A stretch of 64,000 nucleotides of DNA from Owenia fusiformis (Eukaryota; Annelida; Polychaeta; Sabellida; Oweniidae). Of the stretch, positions 1 to 61,520 are shown piece after piece; the stretch's first letter is position 1, and every line of letters starts with the position of its first letter. The DNA is taken from assembly GCA_903813345.2 (NCBI GenBank), contig CAIIXF020000011.1, positions 1,636,571 through 1,700,570 of the forward strand, given 5' to 3'. Position numbers and translations under genes: made by a program. The notes below the pieces were generated by a model. The model searched no databases. It had not been told where the DNA came from and saw nothing but the letters and a program-made list of their open reading frames with translations.

Positions 1-1990
1 GGTTTACCGAAAATACACAAATGTGAACTTATAAGAGACAGATGTAAATGTGAACAATCCGAATATATAAAAATGGAATGTCCATACAATTTGACTTTTC
101 GTCCGATAGTTGGCGGTCCAACTAGTGAGACTAGCAAACTAAGCGAATTTATTGATAAAATTTTACAACCATTAGTACCAGAAGCGATGGGAAATAGTTA
201 CATTAAAGACGACATGGATTTCATAAAGAAATTACCCAATCTTACTACTAACTCTTCTACAATGCTGGTATCATTCGATGTAGTAGGATTATACAGCAAT
301 ATTCCGCATGAACTAGGTTTACAAGCAATATCTTATTGGTTGGATAAATACGATAATGACATCATAAAACGGATTTCTCCTGATTTCATTATGAAAGCTA
401 TAGAATTAATCCTCGAAAACAACTTTCTTCAATTCGATAACGAAGTGTTCCGACAACTGAAAGGAACAGCCATGGGAACGAAAATGGCCCCGTGCTATAG
501 TAATTTAACTTTAGCGTTTGTGGAAGAGAAATTAATGGATGAGATGCAAATAACATTTCCCGAAGATATTGCCAAATTCATTCAAATTAATTGGAGACGA
601 TATCTGGATGATTGCTTTATTCTTTGGCCTTTCTCTGAAGAAAGATTGAAAGCCTTTCACATGGTTCTAAACAGTATTGATATGTGAAAGTAACAGAAAC
701 CAACTCCCGTTCCTCGATATCATGGTTAAAATAAAACCTGGAGGTGAAATCGCAACAGACATTTTTAGAAAACCAACTGATACGCAACAATATTTGAACT
801 TTAACTCATGTCACCCACACCATGTTAAGATCAATTTACCGTATAACTTAGCCCGCCGTATCATCTGTATTGTAAGTGAAGAAGAAGTGCAAATTGAAAG
901 ATTAACCGAATTGGAGATTACACTGATATCACGTGGTTACCCCAGAGGCCTGATACACGATGCAATAAAAAAAGCCAAAGAATATACTAGACATGATCTA
1001 CTATACGGAAACAACAATGACAACAAAAAGGGTGATAAAAAATCCCTTTTATTTCAACATTCAACCCTAGAAACCCAGACTTGTTTTCAACTTTAAAAGA
1101 AAATGCAGTTGTTCTTAACAATGATACAAAAATGAGAGACGTGATCACTAAAAAACCATTTTTAAAGAGTAAACGTCAAAGCAGAAACTTGAAAAGAATC
1201 ATAACTTCTTCTGCTTTCAAATCTTATAAAGAGGATATAACTGTGACCAAATGTGAAAAACCAAGATGTGGCTGCTGTGTTCATATTTCTAATGATATTA
1301 AATACAATGGCAAAACATTCAACGCCAAGGTATCAATGAATTGTGAATCAAGAAACGTATTATATGCCATGAAATGTGCTGGATGTAACGAGATTTACAT
1401 TGGACAAACGGGCGACAAACTTCGGAACAGGGTCCGGGTCCATAAGCAACAAATTCGTGACCCTACTGTCCGTATGTTGCCAGTAAGCGAGCATATTGAT
1501 AATTGTGCTACTGGACATGAACCAAAATTCACAATAATGCCTTTTTTTAAATTTCATGAAGACGATATCGAACAAAGAATCGCCATGGAAAATCATTTTA
1601 TTAACATTTTTCAACCCAAACTAAACAAATAAATTGTTTATTGGTTACTATACATGTAACGGTTAAATTGTACGTGATGGATAAATACTACTGACAATAA
1701 TTAATTGTATTAATATTACGTCATATACCTTTTTACCTGTATATTTTTAAACCAAAAATAAACAAATAAATTGTTTATTGGTTACTATATAAGCGGATTA
1801 TATTTATATTACGTCATACTTACCTGTATATATCTTAAACCAAAACTAAACAAATAAATTGTTTATTGGTTTCCATGACGTTTAATTAATTATATTAATA
1901 TTACGTCATACTTACCTGTATACCTCCTGTTCTCATTTTTGAAAAATCTACTGAGGAATAAAGAAACATGTTTAGATTTTCAAACGTATT
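1..1990 (+). mobile_element. Penelope-like element (GIY-YIG type), 3' part
   Basis: Coding begins at base 1, so the 5' end lies outside the window. The reverse transcriptase shows the Penelope hallmarks: LPKIHK at the edge, then (counting from the Met at 73) FRPIVGG around residues 9-15, the motif A region SFDVVGLYSNIPHE around 67-80, GTAMGTKMAPCYSNL around 131-145 and the catalytic YLDD at 177-180. A GIY-YIG endonuclease follows (about 1240-1630), with a Cys cluster (KCEKPRCGCC) just ahead of a segment containing LYAMKCAGCNEIYIGQTG and RVRVHKQQ. Such elements prime reverse transcription with this nuclease. The coding region is spread over three overlapping frames (about 1-687, 677-1096, 1081-1632), so this copy is probably inactive. 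It ends in tail repeats and a short 3' segment to about 1990. Family assignment is firm; the clade is not resolved. Confidence 0.9.
1614..1925 (+). repeat. Three tandem tail repeats of the Penelope-like element
   Basis: A block starting with AAACAAATAAATTGTTTATT, itself nearly palindromic, and closing with ATTACGTCAT and an ACCTGTATA run occurs three times (about 1614-1750, 1751-1840, 1841-1925), with internal length differences. The first copy overlaps the last codons and stop of the nuclease frame. Tandem terminal duplications are known in Penelope-like elements. Confidence 0.75.
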
Positions 1991-45022: not shown

Positions 45023-45380
45023 ATGATGATGATGATGATGATAATGAATATGATGGTGATGATAACTATATTCGCGTTTTTCATTTCAAAAATTGATATG
45101 AATAAACTTCAAATTTCCATCAATCTTTCCAATCGACAACTGGAGAAAACACCGTACTTAAAGATCACGAATGCAGAACGACTAGACAAACCACTCCGAT
45201 CTTTTAAAGTGGTTACGAACGGCCGATGCGCAGCTACGTGCACAGCAACGCCAGAATGCGCCTCGTATAATTTGCGGATGATAAACGACAAGATCTACAA
45301 AGCAGTTTGCGAATTGAATGGGCACAGCGGATCTCCCCCAAATCTTACGTCTAATAAAGTAGACTATTACGAAATAACAG
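45023..45380 (+). CDS. Exon 1: signal peptide and PAN/apple-like domain
   Basis: (ATG)n encodes the first six residues, followed by a hydrophobic core. The domain has LDKPLRSFKVVTNGRCAATC then CASYNLR and CELNGHSG. The donor ACAG|GTAAAG leaves phase 1. Confidence 0.75.
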
Positions 45381-48300
45381 GTAAAGAACAGATGATATTT
45401 ATACATATATATTTAACAGAGATTAATACTTTTTAACTCGGGTTTTTGTGAGCTATTGCAATCAGTCACTTTTTGTCTGTCCGTCTTTCTATCAACTGCG
45501 ATGGTTCATTGACATAGTTTTTCATAAAAATCTAAATAGTTCCATATATGAAATGTGTCTATATAAAATTCTCAATCATCCTATAAAAGGTGTTTCAAAA
45601 TATGCAGCCAATTTTATTTCCGAATTTCATGGTTTCAATCTTTTTGGTCATACTTTCACAGGTATTTCAACAATTTAAGTGGTTTTAGTTTCAAAATGAG
45701 TGTATACATACTCAATTGTAACATCAGTAGTGTCGCCAATGTTCGCCTCGTTTCAAAATGGCAGCCAGTTTTATTGCAGAAAGGGTTTTCAGCTGTTTTG
45801 ATCATAACGTCACAATTATCACTTATTTGATTAAAACCTTCTTGAGATGACACCAGTATAATGTAATTCATTCTAAATTATAACACATGAAGATTTTTTT
45901 CATTTGTAAACAATGTTAAACAAATACTTAGTGGATAAATAGTTATTAAATTACTTGGATAGTCACAGAAAAATTACCTACTATAAAGTAAGTTAGTTTC
46001 AAGTTTAGCAGGTTGTGAAGTAATTATTCAGTTGATATTTTACGTGTGTTAATAATCATTTCATCTGTGAAGAATTCGCATTGCATTTACATTCCTCGAT
46101 TATTAGTACCATACATATTGTATTTACTTATGTTCTGTTGTATGATCTATTCATTAATGTATTGCCTTTACTTCTGCCAGTCACTACAATTCATTCTGGA
46201 TTTACCTTTGTACAGTGTTTATTATTTACTTTGGTCAAATTTGGTAATATGACGACTGAGGTATTGTATTTACTTCTCTCGATCCTTATTAAATATTACT
46301 TATATTTATGTACTGTTGTATAATTTATTCAACCAAGTGATTGCTTTTCCTTGTACTTTTAGTGTCAATCAATACTTGAATATTTCTTCAAAAGTATTCA
46401 GGCTTTTTTATCGTTTAACTTGGCTTGGATTTTCAGGGAGAGTATTTTGTTCTCAAATGCTTAAGTGCTGCAGTCAATGTGCCATCCCATAAGCGTATAA
46501 TAACTTCACTAACTTACATTGCAGCCAACTGTTTTGATTTGAAATTTGACACATGACCTAAGGTCAGATGGGTCAAAAAACCTTTGAGGTTGAAAAATAT
46601 TTTAGTTGATAGGGCCACACAATGACAGAATTGCGAAGGTATCCTATACAACAAAAAATTAAGCAATACCGAGAAGTGGTCACTACCAGATCACCTATTA
46701 TATGGTACCAATTGTGCAAATATAAGCCAGAAATGATATATAAATGCAAGTTGATGATACGTCTGATCTCCTAGTAGGTGAAGGTGTCGGGCGTTACACA
46801 GAACCACATGTAAATAGAGTTTGTCCAATGTGCAACTCACCTGACACCTTGACTCATTTTATAAAAGAATGTGAAAAGATTGAACATTTAAGGGGTCCGA
46901 TTCGACCATATTTATTGGCAAATCGGGAAATGATGTCAGCTTTGTTTGCACCCAGTTGTTTTGATGACTGTGTCCTGATTGCAAGGACGATATATCAGAT
47001 GTATCAAGAGAGAATTAAGTCTCTCACCCTGTAAATAATAACACTAAAAGTGTATATATTATTTTATTTTCTTAAATCACATTGTATTAATAGAAAGTAT
47101 GTATGATGATCAGAATTGGTCGCAATAAAGAAATATATATATATATTATATAACAAAGTCAAAAGGGGAAAAGAATTATAAAATTTCAACTGTGTGTGTT
47201 TCAGTTCCAGTTAACGGAGGCCCTGGTACATGGTCAGCTTGGGGAGCGTGCTCTACAACATGCGGGGATGGAGACCAAACTCGCATAAGAGCATGTGACA
47301 ACCCATTTCCAGCTTATTGTGGAAGTCAATGCAATTCAAGTGATCTGACGGACATGCGGTCCTGTAATGAGTCAAAGTGCCCTGGTAATTATTGTATACA
47401 GCTAATACTACGATTTTGTTCACAATTTTCATTGGCAACATATCTGTCAATAAACCAGTCCCTAAAACGATTTAAAAAAATAATCTAAATAATATTGATT
47501 CTAATTGATACAATATATAGAATTGGATTGAACTTTTATGATTTGATAAATTGGAGCCAAACTCATATAGTTCACTGATCCTCTCTAATGGGTTGTACTT
47601 CCCCCTTATACCATTGGTTTTTGTGTAAAGAATACAAACTAAAATGAGGAATTGCTGTTTTACATCTTCAAATTCACAATCATATCTCTTTCACCTGCTA
47701 AACATTTCAGTTTGCCATTTTTGGACGTACCAAGCTGTGGGTTTCTGTTTTACTATTCCAGAGACAAATTAGAATCTATGTTTGTACAGTCATATATTTT
47801 ACTAAATATTAGAAAATGTCTAACCAGACATAAACGTTTCTCAGTTTCTCACTACATTAAGCACCCCAGAACAAAAGGATTCATGATTATTTTAATTGAG
47901 TGTTTTTCGTCATTTAATCATAATAATCGTGACATGCACTGAAAATTGCACAAAATTCAAGATCAAGATTTTACTTTCTAATTTATGACATTGATAATGA
48001 CGGCTTTGCGAATGGATGTTGACCCTTTGAATTACATATGGACTTCTAGAATGGATTTCTTCTGTTCTACATCATTTGAGACTAAATGCTTTATCTTCAA
48101 TGAGTACTAGTGCCAACTGTTTTGTCATGAGTATTGGCTATAAATTTTTTCAATATTTCTTCAACTTGTATATATTGTAAAGACTTCAGTATGAATGCAA
48201 TGCCCCTTGTTGTTCTGGTCCTGGATTGTGGTATTGGCTCTTGTCTAGGGTGTAACACCACTTTTTCAATTTATATCTTTCTATTTTTCTTAAGACAGGT

Positions 48301-50206
48301 GCACAATTAGAGTTTGCTTTTCTTGCTGGATTTCCTTCAGGTTTTTAGTCTTCCCTTTGGCGCTTGTGCTTAGATAAGCATTTATAATATTTTAGATAAA
48401 CCTGGACCACCTGGTCTACCTTTCGTATTTGTACTCGACGACATAGCTAATGTTACCTGGACTCCACCCCACGATGACGGAGGCGCAATTATCACCAATT
48501 ACAACATTGAAATGCGTCGTTCTGACAATTACAATAACACATGGGTGCGCGTGAACATGAACATATGTATTCCTGGGAACAGTTACTTGATGAGAAGTCT
48601 AACGGAAGATGTCGAATATGAATTCCGCATCGTGGCAGAAAATGAGGCTGGAACTGGGGAACCATCGCAACAATCAGTAAAATTCACATTTGGTATGTAC
48701 TTTTTGTCTACATTCTAGGTGAACCAAGGGGGTTACAATACCCGGGAATTTATCGGTTCGTACAGTACTTGTTTGTTATATGCGTGCGCCCGCAGCTCAT
48801 CCACTGAACGAAACGCCACTTCCCGCTGAAATCACCGGGTATTGATTTTCCCTTGGGTGAACTAGTTATTTTTGTGCATCGGTTTGATCTGTTCGTGCGA
48901 TTGAGAAGGTGCAATAGAAGCTGGCCTGAGGAATAGACTATTATGGTACGAATGGGCGCATATGTATCAAGGAAAATCAAAGGTTATTATCTTACAAAAG
49001 TTGAGGACTTTGAAGGTAATATTAAATTCCACAAACTTAAATCTATCATGATAGGAAATATTGAGCAAACGGGCGGATGGACGAATGAACGGATAAATGG
49101 CCTTTCTATATCCCTGTGCTCAAAGGTTGTTCGGTTCGAACAAAATATGAGCCTGGTTATAGAAAAACCGGTCTTATCAAAGAAATTAAAATTGTGCTAT
49201 AGAGCCAAAAATGTGCCCAAGATTAAGAGGAAAATGTGCTACATTCAAATACGACTTTTTGGTCTATATATGCAAAGAAGAATTGTTAAGACATAAGCCA
49301 TGCCTCATTTGAAAGGTCTTTTTGTGCTTTTTAAGATAAACAAAAATCAGATCAAAGTGTATACAAAGTGTCAGATCGTTTATTTTTTAAGAACTTAACG
49401 ATCGGTAATAATTTGTTTATTTTAATAAAATTTCAGTCAGGCCAAATGTTGTAATGAGAATACCAAGCCCTATATGGAGCCCTATATGGGATCTAACAGT
49501 AACCAGCCTAGGAAATATTGTTACAACAAGTACCCAACACTCTACATCAAAGATCTACAACCGCACGTTCCAACTGATTAAAGATCTTAACAAGAAGTTC
49601 ATATGCGTAACCAAAACCTCAGATGGTCAACTGGCCTTTACCACAAATCCCTTCAGCAATATAATCCACTTCTACACCGAGAATGGGTCACCTATTCGTA
49701 CCATCACATGCCCATCTGATATACGTCTAAATGGTATAGCCTCACTATCAGCAGGTGAACTGGTAGTGACTGATGGATACACCACCGGAGTTTATATTGT
49801 AGATTCTTCAAATGGGAACACCACACAAATCTCGACATCTGATGATATGTTCCAGAGTCCTACCTATTTGGCAGTTGACATTAGAAACCACATCATAGTC
49901 AGTGACTACCATCGACATTTAATCAAAGTGATCAACAGAGAAGGTCTTGAAATCATCCATTATGGCTCAGGGGAGGGGCAACTGATGGGCCCCCTCGGTG
50001 TCTGCACAGATATAAATGGATTCATCATTTTAGGGGAATTGGGAAACAGGGTACAACTCCTAACACGGAACGCAACGTTTCACAGTCTACTACTGACAGT
50101 AGCAGATGGTTTGTCCAACCCATACGCTGTACACGTGAACGAGGTGGGCGAATTGCTAGTGGGTGACTTTGGTGGCCAGCTGTTCGTTGTCAACTACCGA
50201 GACTAA
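45023..50206 (+). CDS. Secreted PAN - TSP1 - FN3 - NHL propeller protein, four exons, complete
   Basis: Exons 45023-45380, 47205-47384, 48396-48692 and 49437-50206 join with introns all in phase 1 to give 534 residues. Residues 1-24 form a Met-rich signal peptide (MITIFAFFIS core); the exact start among six tandem ATGs is open. Residues about 53-105 are PAN/apple-like with Cys 69, 73, 79 and 96. Residues 120-179 are a TSP1 repeat (TWSAWGACSTTCGDG, seven Cys). Residues about 180-278 are fibronectin III (NVTWTPPHDDGGAI, EYEFRIVAENEAGTGEPS). Residues 279-534 are an NHL/TRIM2-like beta-propeller on one exon (NHIIVSDYHRHLIKVI, GPLGVCTDINGFIILGE, GDFGGQLFVVN). It is probably extracellular, binding glycans or matrix; no catalytic motif is seen. 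I do not know a named family with this order. Stop at 50204-50206. Confidence 0.85.
46610..47155 (+). mobile_element. 5'-truncated LINE, 3' end
   Basis: A 96-codon frame at 46744-47034 includes VNRVCPMCNSPDTLTHFIKE and ECEKIEHLRG, the C-x2-C...H-x4-C cluster that follows the reverse transcriptase in many LINEs. An AT-rich tail with AATAAAG and a (TA)n run ends near 47155. It lies in the first intron of the secreted-protein gene, same strand, 50 bases before the TSP1 exon. Confidence 0.65.
47205..47384 (+). CDS. Exon 2: thrombospondin type 1 repeat
   Basis: A symmetrical phase 1-1 exon of 180 bases, VPVNGGPGTWSAWGACSTTC through MRSCNESKCP. It has the WSxWG and CSxTCGxG signatures for glycosylation and disulphide bonding. 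Confidence 0.9.
47390..48390 (+). other. Intron 2 of the secreted-protein gene
   Basis: AT-rich with no repeats recognised. A 96-codon frame at 47652-47942 is hydrophobic and low in similarity to anything known to me; it has no splice support. Confidence 0.5.
48396..48692 (+). CDS. Exon 3: fibronectin type III domain
   Basis: A symmetrical phase 1-1 exon of 297 bases beginning DKPGPPGLPFVFVLDD. It has the B-strand Trp, the DDGG-I-x-Y pattern and the closing YEFRIVAENEAGTGEPS, all standard FN3 landmarks. Confidence 0.9.
48715..48865. mobile_element. Small inverted-repeat element in intron 3
   Basis: CTAGGTGAACCAAGGGGGTT and the complement of CCCTTGGGTGAACTAG bound about 150 bases, with AATACCCGG and CCGGGTATT as inner inverted words. 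It starts about 23 bases after the FN3 donor. Confidence 0.65.
49437..50206 (+). CDS. Exon 4: NHL-type beta-propeller
   Basis: A single 770-base exon holds all recognisable propeller blades, entering in phase 1 with VRPNVVMRIPSPIWSPIWDL. Blades follow a pattern of (I/V)xVxxxGxIxxxx then a polar turn, typical of TRIM2/3 NHL repeats. The stop is followed one base later by GTAAGT, so a 3' UTR intron is possible. Confidence 0.85.
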
Positions 50207-50290
50207 GGTAAGTATGAAACAATAATGGAGTAACAGCAAATATAACATAGCATCATGGCATGAATGTTTTTATATAATTATTCGATTGAA

Positions 50291-50299: not shown

Positions 50300-52080
50300 T
50301 ATAATGTAACTTAAGTATTATTTAAAAGTATGTCGAGAGAAAATATTGTAAACAACATGCTTTTTTAAATAGGTAAAGTCTATTGGCGTTAAAGAGTATA
50401 CATAATACATACTTTGTTATATTTTTTCGTGAAGAATAATAATGAACTAGAAAATGATTAAGTTCAATTTATTTAAAAGTAAACAATATTACATTTTAGT
50501 CCTGCATCAAGAAGGCAGATATATCAGCCGCAGCAGCAGTAACAACAACAATAACACAAACAATAATAATAACAACAATTATAGGAACAAAAATGTGACT
50601 TTTTACAATAACGACCATTATGAACTGACGAAAAATTGTTTTGACCAAAACACAACATTATTCTACAACACGAAGTAAACATTGGTGTTTAATCAACATT
50701 TATATTAATTGTGTACATAAAGTTTATGTATAGTTATATTAGTAAGGAAAGGTGATCACCACACATGTAAATATATTCAAATCTTAGTTGCAATTTGTAT
50801 TTAGATATCCTAGAATCCAAAATGTACAATATTTGGATGATGTAGAAGGTGATATATAGTGCGTCCAAAAAGGCAACAAACAAATACATTGTAGAATCAC
50901 AAAACCAGTGATGATTACATCAATTTAATTTAGTTTAACAGGAAGCAATATGTCTCCCCTGTTCAATGGTATGCCAATTATTCATATACGACCACAGACC
51001 ATTGAATATTATTCCTTTTGCACAACGGGCCAAAATCTTCTCTGGACCAAGTTTTAGACATTGCAACAGTTAACAAAGAGTCACCAATGAGGTTGCTGCT
51101 CTCCGCCAGAACCCCAAATGATTCAAAGAGGTGTGCGACGTGGAGACACAAACTAGTCTCTGTTTGTAGAGAAATACATGTAGTGGTCATGTGAAAGGGC
51201 ATGGAATGTAATCTTTTATGAGTAATCTTTTATAGGATGACAGTCAACGACTGTTTATGCCACTTCCTTTTCCATATATATATATCCAACAAGGATACTG
51301 ATGAAAATAAAATAAATAAATAAATTTTCTTTTTTTCTTAGTAAATCTTATGTAAATCTTGTGACAAGTTTATAATGATTTACCTAATTGCACATAGGAT
51401 CAGTTGATTGATGTTTCAAAACTTGGCACAACGGCCTTTTTACCCATGTACGAAAAGACAATGACTTTCAGTGTTCGATGATCAGATATGAACAAATGAC
51501 ATATCATTGAAAGGGGGAGACAAGTGGCTTCACGGTAAACTAAATGAAATCGATGTAATCAACACTGGTTTTGTGATTGTACACTGTTTTTGTTTGCTGC
51601 GTATTTTGGGACGCACTGTTTTGAAATAATCGAAGAAACAGATGTGTTTTCATTTTCTTTAAACAATATCATGAACACATGAACCAGCCTTATCCTACAT
51701 TTCATATTTGTTAAACATATTTGTAATTTGTACACAGTCTACTGTACTCAAAATGGTTTGAAACACAATGGTTAAAGCGACACTGTTTTTAAGAAATGCA
51801 AAGTATAGACGTGTATTGTCTCATTTTATGTACTCAGTGCTGATTAGTTAAATAATATATTAATCCCATACACAATATATTTTGTATGGCAATAAATTAG
51901 ATGTATACATTAAGTCATAAGCACAGCTTGTTGTTATCTGTTTTGACCTTTTATTGATTTCTTCAATTTTGTATAAAATGGGTCAATAGCATTCAGTTAT
52001 TCAATATCCAGTTATGACAGTTATCTTTAAGTCCAGCAAACATGTCATAGGATAAGCAGCCTGCATTATATATATCCTTG
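50300..52080. other. Intergenic or 3' UTR sequence
   Basis: An AAC/AAT-rich stretch (50535-50585) is the only feature; no exon, RNA gene or inverted-repeat element was recognised. Confidence 0.4.
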
Positions 52081-52705
52081 TCTTTTCATTGGTTAAGTGT
52101 CCAAAGAAGGAATTGTGGCGAAACATTTGCAGATACGAAGTGCAACTTTACAATGAAAATATGTCAATTCCTCAACAAAACATAAGAATACCTCTCACTT
52201 GCGCCAAAAAGTTAATTATATGGAGATTAGCACTTGGAAACCCTAGACTATTAACTATAGCCCATATTGTTGCCAAAGTAGTAGCACTTCCGGTAACATC
52301 AGTAAACACACTATGTGATAAATGTGGAATGTTCTACCAAGATCAATTAAATCATGCCTTGCTGAAGTGTCAAGCCTACAAGGAACACAGACAAGCATTC
52401 ATCAATGCTATTAGAGCAATATCTGATAATGCATCCTTACACCTCGACAACATTAGTGCTATGTTGCAAGCTGACCTCTGCAATCTATGCGTAGAAGTGT
52501 CCTTCAAAATACATCAATAAAATTGTAAGGCTGTGGGACATCGATTTAACTCCACTATATCCTAAGATAAGTGTTAATTTATTTTATATAAAATGTAAAT
52601 GTAAATAATGTTCATGTCAACTTGTATACTTGTAAAATGTGCTTATGTTTAAAAACTCCAATTACAAATTGGGAAATAAAATATACATACATACAAACAT
52701 ACAAG
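52080..52705 (+). mobile_element. 5'-truncated LINE, 3' end, second family member
   Basis: A 143-codon frame (52089-52520) carries KKLIIWRLALGNPRLLTIAH, then LCDKCGMFYQDQLNHALLKC, the same post-transcriptase zinc cluster as at 46610 but clearly diverged. A 3' region ends in ATACATACATACAAACATAC, a microsatellite-type tail. Confidence 0.65.
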
Positions 52706-59139: not shown

Positions 59140-61520
59140 ATTATTATATTTATTGACCCTCCAATCCTGGAGATAATGTTTATTTACAGTATGTAATAAA
59201 TGTAATAAGAATAACAATTACTATACATATTTGCTCATTGAGCAGTGACACAGCAGAAACCCCGTGGTTAGCACATATTCTGCCCTGGGGGTCCCTGTGT
59301 ACAAAGGAAAAGATACATTATATAAAACATCAATTTACTTAGACATCACCAGGAGTGCCAATCACAGCCCTTTGTCGACATACTGGTTGGTACTTCAAGT
59401 TATAGTGCTGCTGTTCTCGAGCCTTCGAATGTACATGTTTTGCACATCTGTTGCAATGCATCTGAGATCTTCATTTGAGAGGGTATCATCTCCACCAAAG
59501 ATGCATCGTAACTTAAGCATATTGGTCATGTGTCTACCATTTGGTATTCTACAAAGTATATTTATAATGTTAGTTCTTAAAGTGCTGTATTCGGGGCATT
59601 CTAAAATAAAGTGCTCCAGAGTTTCAATACGCTGCATGTCGCACATTTCACATGTTCTGTTAATCATAGGGACATTTTCCCACTCGCCAGTTATAGCTTT
59701 GAGGGTTCCGTGGCCAGTGAGCAGCCGCACCATCAGGGTGCATCTTTTAATAAAACTACAGTCCTGTCTGGCAATTTCCCACCATGCTATCGGTTTGGTA
59801 CCAGTCACTATAGTTCGGTATAATGATAGCTTATCATATGTAATCAATTCTCTCCTCCATATGTTATATTCAAATGTCCTTACGATATTCCTGACATATC
59901 GTTTCCAGGTAGACTTTGTAGGAACTACGCCGTTACCCATCATATCATATATCATTTCCGATATTCCAAACCGTGACGCAAGTGTCATTATGTCACCTAT
60001 AGGGGACAATTTATGCAGTGAAGTAGAATCATATCTGAACTTTATGATGCGCTTTATTGCTATGCTACGATAAATCGATCCTGGGACCTGGGAAAGAAGT
60101 TGTAGCAGAAACATCATTTTAGCTATTACTATAGTTGCCGTCATCGTATGCCAGCCTAGTTGCGGTAGTACAGCTGGATCAGATGTGTTTACTGGCAGGC
60201 CTTGTAGTTTCTTACAGATGCTTCTATGTCCCTGCTCTAACAACTTGTAATAATTTTCACTCAGTGGGACTAGCTCCATCCCATATGTCATTGAGGGCAT
60301 GCTAACGGACCAATATAGCTTTGACGCAGTGAGGGGGTTAGTTGGATTCTGAGTATGTGTTGTCGTCCCCACGTAGGCGTTCATTGCTCTCCTTCCTTTG
60401 GATAATGAAGTCTCAATCAATTCTCTGTTACTGTTGTTATTTGACAAGGGAAGTCCAACATGTTGGGTTGTTTGGACTACTTCTAATCTGCGACCCCCCA
60501 TCATCAGGTCTATCCCGGTATGTTGCGTAGCACGATTGTTGCTGAATACAATAACCTTACACTTATCAGGGTGATACTTGAAACGCCATTTTGTGCTGTA
60601 CTGATGCATTATGTTTAAAATGTCCTGCATTGTCTTCCTATGATAAGAAATGATGACTGTATCATCGGCATAGGATGGACATGTACATACTACATCCCCC
60701 ACAGAACATCCTTTCTCTGAGCCAATCACATCTAAGAGTAGCCTATTCATATACTCCCCGTAGAGCTCCATGGAGTAAAGCCCTCCCTGGTGGACTCCCT
60801 GAGAAATTGGGAACTTGTCTGAGAGTGTGACGTCATTTCCACACCTTACTGCACACTGGTAGTCACTGTAGCATAATCTCAACATCCTCCAGAGCTTCCC
60901 ATTTATTCCAAGGTTAAAAAGCTTGTAGAAGAGGCCATTGTGCCAAACCGTGTCGAAGGCCTTGCTAATGTCCATTGTGACCATTATGACGTCATTACCA
61001 TTCTCAAGTCCATTACATATAGCTTGTCTTGTCAGAAACGAGGTGTGGAGGCATGACGTCATTGCCTTGTTTGCAGCCTGCATCTCTGACTTCGGCTCGT
61101 TCCTATGGCATCTTCTGCTCCGGGTTACCATTATCTTCTCCCATAACTTCATGAAAGTCGTCATTAGCGTCAGGCCCCTATGGTTGTCCTTCTCCAATAT
61201 ATCCTTGTTTCCTCCTTTGAAGATGGGGATTAGTACCCCAAGCTTAAAGCTACTCGGGATGTGCTCTAATCTTATAATATGGTTGTACAATATGACAAGT
61301 ATGTGCGCAAGGGCGTCCTCACCAAAGCGTAAATGTTCAGTGCTAATTTCATCCCACCCTGTAGCCTTATTCCGAGAGAGGCTGTTTATTAGGTCAGTCA
61401 TCTCAGTGTAATCTAATGGATCCTGTAGCGCTTCATCCTCATTTGTAAAACTGTCCCGTATCATATCTATTATCCTTGAGTTAATTTCATGTTCATGTTT
61501 ACCATCATAACTATGCTACA
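59140..61520 (-). mobile_element. LINE with long open reverse transcriptase frame, 5'-truncated
   Basis: The minus-strand frame 61464-59395 is open for 689 codons. It shows LSRNKATGWDEIS (about 29-41), the motif A region VTMDISKAFDTVWHNGL (162-178, catalytic Asp 165), SQGVHQGGLYS (221-231), YADD at 265-268 and a C-terminal CEMCDMQRIETLEHFILEC zinc cluster. In-frame codons extend upstream to about 61513, then a stop and unrelated DNA; no APE endonuclease is present, so it is truncated at its 5' end. The 3' UTR ends in AATAAATATAATAATAA at about 59140 against the TTATTATT of the composite satellite. The clade (jockey/I-like) is not resolved. Confidence 0.85.

Follow-up and report, generated by a model that had tools for sequence, protein, structure and literature searches.

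The window, a 64,000-nucleotide stretch of DNA (C11:1636571-1700570), was found to hold a predicted gene in which a leader, a PAN domain, a thrombospondin type 1 (TSP1) domain, a fibronectin type III (FN3) domain and an NHL propeller follow one another on four exons. The propeller carries hypervariable positions, five per blade, which we believe to be a new observation. The reading that we favor, with a little better than even confidence, is that the product is a secreted modular recognition protein whose NHL propeller was captured from a TRIM-NHL gene, whose top face is variable, and which belongs to a germline-encoded repertoire.

Splicing of the window sequence joined the four exons through GT-AG introns into 534 codons plus a stop codon, with all three junctions in phase 1. 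The initial annotation had described four domains, one per exon, linked by phase 1 introns, and had called for a profile-HMM search of the product; both points were borne out, since Pfam analysis of the single exons placed PAN_1, TSP_1, fn3 and NHL above their curated cut-offs of 21.4, 21.6, 25 and 20 bits, respectively. The features are as follows.

45023..45380, + strand: exon 1, signal-peptide-like N-terminus and PAN domain; ends in phase 1 at the donor gtaaag; PAN_1 26.0 bits.
45050..45100, + strand: probable signal peptide, MMVMITIFAFFISKID; read directly, with a visual comparison against the leaders of paralogs L079 and L082.
47205..47384, + strand: exon 2, TSP1 domain; phase 1-1; TSP_1 45.6 bits.
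48396..48692, + strand: exon 3, fibronectin type III domain; phase 1-1; fn3 53.7 bits.
49437..50206, + strand: exon 4, six-bladed NHL propeller and stop codon; NHL 33.0 bits; placed with the AB-turn anchors.
50204..50213, + strand: stop codon with the donor-like motif TAAG/GTAAGT; possible 3'UTR intron; motif common to TRIM-NHL genes.

The ATG at 45023 lies inside an ATG-rich microsatellite, and the starts of the paralogs, compared by eye, favor the ATG at 45050 as the likely start codon. The 534-residue product first proposed therefore matches the codon count from 45023 but would probably be shortened to 525 residues. The N-terminal leader is hydrophobic, with an 11-residue hydropathy maximum of 2.8, and the leaders of the paralogs are alike. 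Exon 2 contains WSAW and CSTTCG, which we take to be C-mannosylation and O-fucosylation motifs. At the other end of the gene, the AAG/GTAAGT that overlaps the stop codon at 50204-50213 is a perfect donor consensus, and exon 4 may extend past the stop as far as this candidate donor of a 3'UTR intron.

The best solved relatives of exon 4 in a phmmer search were the NHL domains of human TRIM3 (E value of 1.8e-28) and TRIM2 (E value of 6.1e-28). No RING or B-box was found by Pfam in the spliced product, and a TRIM query gave no match near the window among the matches listed (best 109 of 273 candidates scored). The structure prediction and blade count that had been proposed gave a divided result. 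The single-sequence fold of exon 4 was poor (mean pLDDT of 49.1), its nearest PDB matches being TRIM NHL domains with low TM-scores, while in our own reading of the sequence there are six a-b-c repeats and blade 6 is closed by a strand from the N-terminus, with AB-turn anchors at exon residues 25, 63, 106, 150, 194 and 237. The faces of the propeller were accordingly mapped by sequence register and published LIN41 contacts, the AlphaFold model being too poor for this purpose.

Paralogs were sought in the same genome (498 Mb, 525 contigs), to which all comparisons are confined. Searches with the exons returned at least 150 NHL, 40 PAN, 89 FN3 and at least 150 TSP1 matches, the last being 150 of 611 candidates; the best 12 paralogous matches to exon 3 were 57-74% identical and lay on C11, C2, C58 and C8. 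From the NHL matches, 52 orphan NHL exons with frames too short for a TRIM protein, mostly 240-340 aa, were chosen by eye. The choice omitted some weaker matches of similar frame length (for example on C5, C9 and C4), and it included one frame inflated by a run of N and two exons, C11:5176813 and C3:6369274, which are split TRIM genes. A PAN, TSP1 or FN3 match was found within 30 kb upstream on the same strand of 14 of the 52, the window's own exon included; this count took in all 40 PAN, 13 of the 89 FN3 and 46 of the 150 listed TSP1 matches, the rest lying away from the picked orphan exons. In eight of these 14 loci two or more kinds of partner were present, and all eight kept the order PAN, TSP1, FN3, NHL. 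The number of TSP1 domains detected per locus ranged from none to eight and that of FN3 domains from none to two. Such variation between paralogs, together with the phase 1 exons, upholds the view that this is a modular protein with a leader, assembled by exon shuffling. Two of the PANs counted may belong to other genes, namely, those assigned to C11:2233485 (a weak match of 36% identity, 24 kb off) and C11:780837 (28 kb off).

Four paralogous stretches, L079 to L082, were read directly. They have the order PAN, FN3, NHL, with two FN3 domains in L081 and TSP1 unrecognized in all four. The exon edges are, by eye, in phase 1 as in the window in L079 to L081, and L082 differs in having its NHL acceptor at a more upstream position. 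In comparisons between the window's exons and paralogs for which dS was unsaturated, dN/dS was 0.20-0.46 for PAN, 0.14-0.29 for TSP1 (three comparisons), 0.29-0.52 for FN3 and 0.17-0.45 for NHL, some of the rows being one copy under two locus identifiers. These ratios (0.14-0.52 overall) and the presence of paralogs in the same genome exclude a chance origin, and we regard the predicted four-exon PAN-TSP1-FN3-NHL gene as confirmed at the sequence level. Genes of this type form, from the sequence comparisons, a multicopy family.

It could still be argued that the four exons are not one gene and that the NHL exon is dead or part of another transcript, given that 38 of the 52 orphan NHL exons had no PAN, TSP1 or FN3 partner within 30 kb upstream. 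We consider this extremely unlikely. The paralogs keep the domain order, the phase 1 edges match in L079 to L081, dN/dS is below 1 against paralogs for all four exons, and the sequons and few cysteines of the window's NHL clade (see below) fit the secretory path.

The surroundings of the orphan exons differ from place to place. At C7:36129572-39382783 and C3:612200-748681 there are groups of orphan NHL exons for which no match to PAN, TSP1 or FN3 was found in a range of 30 kb. Among the matches listed in a PAN_1 search (best 150 of 436 candidates), none was seen by eye to lie closer than 30 kb to an orphan exon on C3 or C7, and on C7 the nearest listed PAN was separated from these exons by at least about 90 kb. 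When frames in the 1.5 kb upstream of each of 23 orphan exons were searched for PAN, TSP1 and FN3, one clear FN3 was found; a TSP1-like match (E value of 0.001) was discounted as too weak. Around the window, TSP1, FN3, PAN and NHL exon matches are scattered over about 2 Mb (C11:312072-2501859), and at C9:4618613-4663768 TSP1 exons with 71-81% identity to exon 2 form a cluster, with none of the listed NHL matches nearby.

Alignment of the NHL domains showed that variability recurs at the same registers of each blade. Within the window's clade (clade A, 11 sequences), the mean entropies at offsets -11, -10, -8, +7 and +8 from the a-b turn were 1.94, 2.19, 2.46, 2.56 and 2.05 bits, respectively, one blade 1 position being unscorable, and all other registers were at 1.44 bits or less; blade 2 was weaker at -11 (1.1) and +8 (1.4). 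In the window these registers correspond to 30 codons, five per blade, between 49478 and 50173 on the + strand, identified by the register entropies and coinciding with the registers of the LIN41 RNA contacts. The first bases of the codons are as follows.

Blade 1, + strand: 49478, 49481, 49487, 49532, 49535.
Blade 2, + strand: 49592, 49595, 49601, 49646, 49649.
Blade 3, + strand: 49721, 49724, 49730, 49775, 49778.
Blade 4, + strand: 49853, 49856, 49862, 49907, 49910.
Blade 5, + strand: 49985, 49988, 49994, 50039, 50042.
Blade 6, + strand: 50114, 50117, 50123, 50168, 50171.

The mean entropy at the 30 positions versus elsewhere was 2.25 versus 0.69 bits in clade A, 2.28 versus 0.68 bits in the second orphan clade (clade B, 12 sequences) and 2.42 versus 1.06 bits in 10 TRIM copies, and the 30 positions accounted for 23, 21 and 20, respectively, of the 30 most variable positions. 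All of these alignments were made by tblastn against the window's exon, so that loops with indels may be misplaced. In seven recent orphan pairs, some of which share a member, amino acid differences were found at 142 of 415 sites in the top b-c and d-a loops and at 8 of 208 sites in the bottom a-b and c-d turns, compared with 7-10% of strand sites. At the TRIM-type loci L035 and L083 to L091, variability likewise peaks at the registers seen in the orphan exons, yet the local dN/dS there is below 1.

The position of these registers on the propeller was taken from LIN41. As excerpted from PMC5908797, 14 LIN41 residues contact RNA on the upper surface of the propeller, and its first strand closes blade 6. 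When the contacts were mapped through the TRIM71 chain, the letter agreed for 14/14 and all 14 fell on the five hypervariable registers; no further contact is named there. The same text describes most LIN41 contact residues as identical across species, unlike their counterparts in the window's family, which are its most variable positions, and reports that exchanging sets of them weakened repression (PMC5908797). High diversity at the same opening is noted for human TRIM NHL domains in an excerpt of PMC9634614.

Selection on these sites was assessed with site sets of 30 picked in one clade and tested in another. Relative to exon-wide dS, dN at the 30 sites was 2.44 in clade A (4 pairs), 3.31 in clade B (5 pairs) and 1.55 in three TRIM pairs, and for the rest of the exon it was 0.42 in clade A and 0.57 in clade B. 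With dS taken from the same codons the ratios were 1.25 (P = 0.24) in clade A, 2.02 (P = 0.005) in clade B and 0.62 in the TRIM pairs; since these local ratios are lower than the exon-wide ones, silent change is raised at the variable codons too. Codons with two or three base differences, which can inflate local dS, made up 109 of 590 top codons versus 57 of 1,754 elsewhere. By structural class, dN/dS in the 10 closest orphan pairs was 1.11 for the top loops (P = 0.23), 0.53 for the strands and 0.35 for the bottom turns. In a few recent pairs dN/dS over the whole exon appeared to exceed 1, but this was not upheld, as N was above S in one pair of the 13 tested (P = 0.018, uncorrected).

Change at the 30 sites was also compared with the DNA flanking each exon, with known exons masked. 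Nonsynonymous divergence exceeded that of the flanks in eight of nine testable orphan pairs, by factors of 2.1 to 15 (P ≤ 0.0079), two of the flanks being short (100 and 329 bases) and a tenth pair having no alignable flank; the very recent pair L028-L031, with one change, had no excess. Because the registers were defined on clade A, the four pairs of that clade do not provide an independent test of the sites chosen. Of the five clade B pairs, three exceeded their flanks, one did not and one had no test, and the pair L030-L038 exceeded its flanks.

These data bear on whether the protein might be an ordinary matrix or adhesion protein whose loops vary freely and have no role in recognition. PAN, TSP1 and FN3 are common matrix modules, the top-loop ratio of 1.11 is above 1 without being significant, and local dS is raised, all of which this explanation would accommodate. 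Against it, the turns of the opposite face are conserved while the top loops change, the 30 sites outpace the flanking DNA in eight of nine pairs, and codons that keep their amino acid have no significant silent excess on top (33 of 388 versus 102 of 1,581 elsewhere, P = 0.18). We therefore judge a matrix protein of this kind to be unlikely and diversifying selection on the top face to be likely rather than proven. The main alternative to such selection is gene conversion of the framework and flanks, which could homogenize both.

Features of the NHL domain outside the top face were consistent with secretion. Every one of the 28 N-glycosylation sequons in the window's clade maps to a c-d turn, the position being the final residue of strand c1 for seven, and CD5 carries one in 11 of 11 sequences. 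In clade B the sequons are mostly at CD3 (7), with others elsewhere, including two in the top loop BC1. The mean number of cysteines per NHL domain was 1.9 in the window's clade and 1.4 in the second orphan clade, versus 5.7 in TRIM copies. Sequons and few cysteines are both in keeping with a domain that travels along the secretory path, and the protein would, as predicted, probably be secreted. With five cysteines apiece and a total of one sequon, L030 and L038 look TRIM-like in both features, and the suggestion that they are secreted was dropped.

Next to be considered is where the NHL exon came from. The locus L035 encodes a RING, two B-boxes and an NHL domain in a single frame of 630 aa, and many other TRIM-like matches in the genome consist of one frame of about 600-700 aa. 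In the tree, one branch (96/86) separates 26 orphan NHL exons from 10 TRIM NHL domains; L017, L018 (truncated copy) and L026 were omitted from it, and L030 and L038 carried the label secreted. Rooting on the two most divergent TRIM copies made the orphan exons a single clade, and rooting on two very distant copies placed the root among the orphan exons; holding the orphan exons as one clade cost 1.9 log units (AU test, P = 0.355), so that such a clade is not rejected. We took the TRIM form as the older state because an excerpt of PMC3503706 lists the TRIM-NHL subfamily for animals in general.

The sequence around the stop codon provided a second line of evidence. GGTA directly after the stop triplet (TAAG/GTA) was found in 18 of 27 orphan exons and 8 of 10 TRIM copies, compared with 12 of 3,960 stop-like triplets in the window, and it is retained in relatives of about 40% identity. 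This suggests capture at the DNA level, with a TRIM-NHL gene as the putative source of the NHL exon. The undivided NHL exon had been taken to hint instead at a retrocopy, that is, a TRIM-NHL messenger that landed in a gene for a secreted protein. That proposal did not hold up well and we consider it very unlikely, because a copy of spliced RNA should lack the donor-like sequence after the stop, which is common to the TRIM and orphan exons, and because an undivided exon needs no retrocopy when the related TRIM-NHL genes already code in one frame.

Other elements were noted in the window. An open frame of 706 codons at 59395-61515 (- strand), with YADD and a zinc-knuckle-like end, reads like what we presume to be a non-LTR retrotransposon reverse transcriptase. 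Short frames at 46744-47034 (+ strand, inside intron 1) and 52056-52520 (+ strand) have a CxxC...H...C end resembling the tail of a non-LTR retrotransposon, and they had no Pfam match at an E value of 0.1. Two frames of 141 and 197 aa at 671-1632 (+ strand) look like parts of a GIY-YIG-containing element, presumably Penelope-like.

The predicted protein shares features with several known systems. TRIM2, TRIM3, TRIM71 (LIN41) and Brat have, as excerpted from PMC5908797 and PMC9634614, the same six-bladed NHL propeller with a first strand that closes blade 6, and the LIN41 RNA-contact registers are the hypervariable registers of the window's family. The product differs from the TRIM-NHL proteins in that no RING or B-box was found in it and in having a leader, PAN, TSP1 and FN3, and its clade differs from the TRIM copies in its fewer cysteines and its sequons at the bottom turns.

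NHL-type propellers also occur outside the cell, in teneurins, PAM and NHLRC3, which differ in having other partner domains; to our knowledge, no tandem family with a hypervariable face has been described among them. In FREPs, VLRs and the B30.2 domain of finTRIMs, recurrent variable positions of a scaffold form one surface, as they would here; differences concentrated on one face are common among recognition molecules. The window's family differs from these in that its scaffold is an NHL propeller and its diversity is seen between gene copies. The earlier statement that no described family has the PAN-TSP1-FN3-NHL order agrees with our search of the open-access literature, which, judged mostly by listings, yielded neither such a family nor one with a hypervariable NHL domain. 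No open-access paper was found that brings together an NHL repeat and thrombospondin type 1, and the listings for NHL domain and hypervariable comprised a bacterial Rhs effector and striated muscle only.

In our reading, the product is most likely a soluble recognition molecule, with a leader, a PAN/TSP1/FN3 stalk and a copy-specific top face on its propeller. What it would recognize is a separate matter. A reproductive or allorecognition molecule, its variable face under gamete or self/non-self conflict and not serving immunity, would be expected to have the same signature, and copies do cluster on C11 among the matches listed. We nevertheless consider it unlikely, since the TRIM relatives, presumably intracellular, vary at the same registers, which would fit defense somewhat better. 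It is because the TRIM relatives have the same pattern of variability that immunity is our first choice, and we conclude that the gene probably encodes a germline-diversified secreted recognition protein with an immune role.

In the mechanism that we propose, an NHL exon would have been captured at the DNA level from a TRIM-NHL gene, and the leader would send the resulting protein out of the cell. The PAN, TSP1 and FN3 domains would serve as an adhesive or assembling stalk, and the top face would bind changing foreign or non-self ligands, most likely microbial surfaces. Each gene copy would then represent one specificity of a germline-encoded repertoire. More tentatively, and with somewhat less than even confidence, we suggest that the RNA-gripping face of TRIM-NHL proteins may have been turned into a germline repertoire used both inside the cell, by TRIM ligases, and, once a PAN-TSP1-FN3 gene had captured the exon, outside it, by soluble receptors that bear a variable ring of 30 positions. 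If so, the six-bladed NHL propeller would become one of the few folds known to serve diversified recognition, and exon capture would be a way for an intracellular sensor to give rise to a secreted one. The finding also raises the testable question of whether the large TRIM-NHL sets of invertebrates may be immune repertoires.
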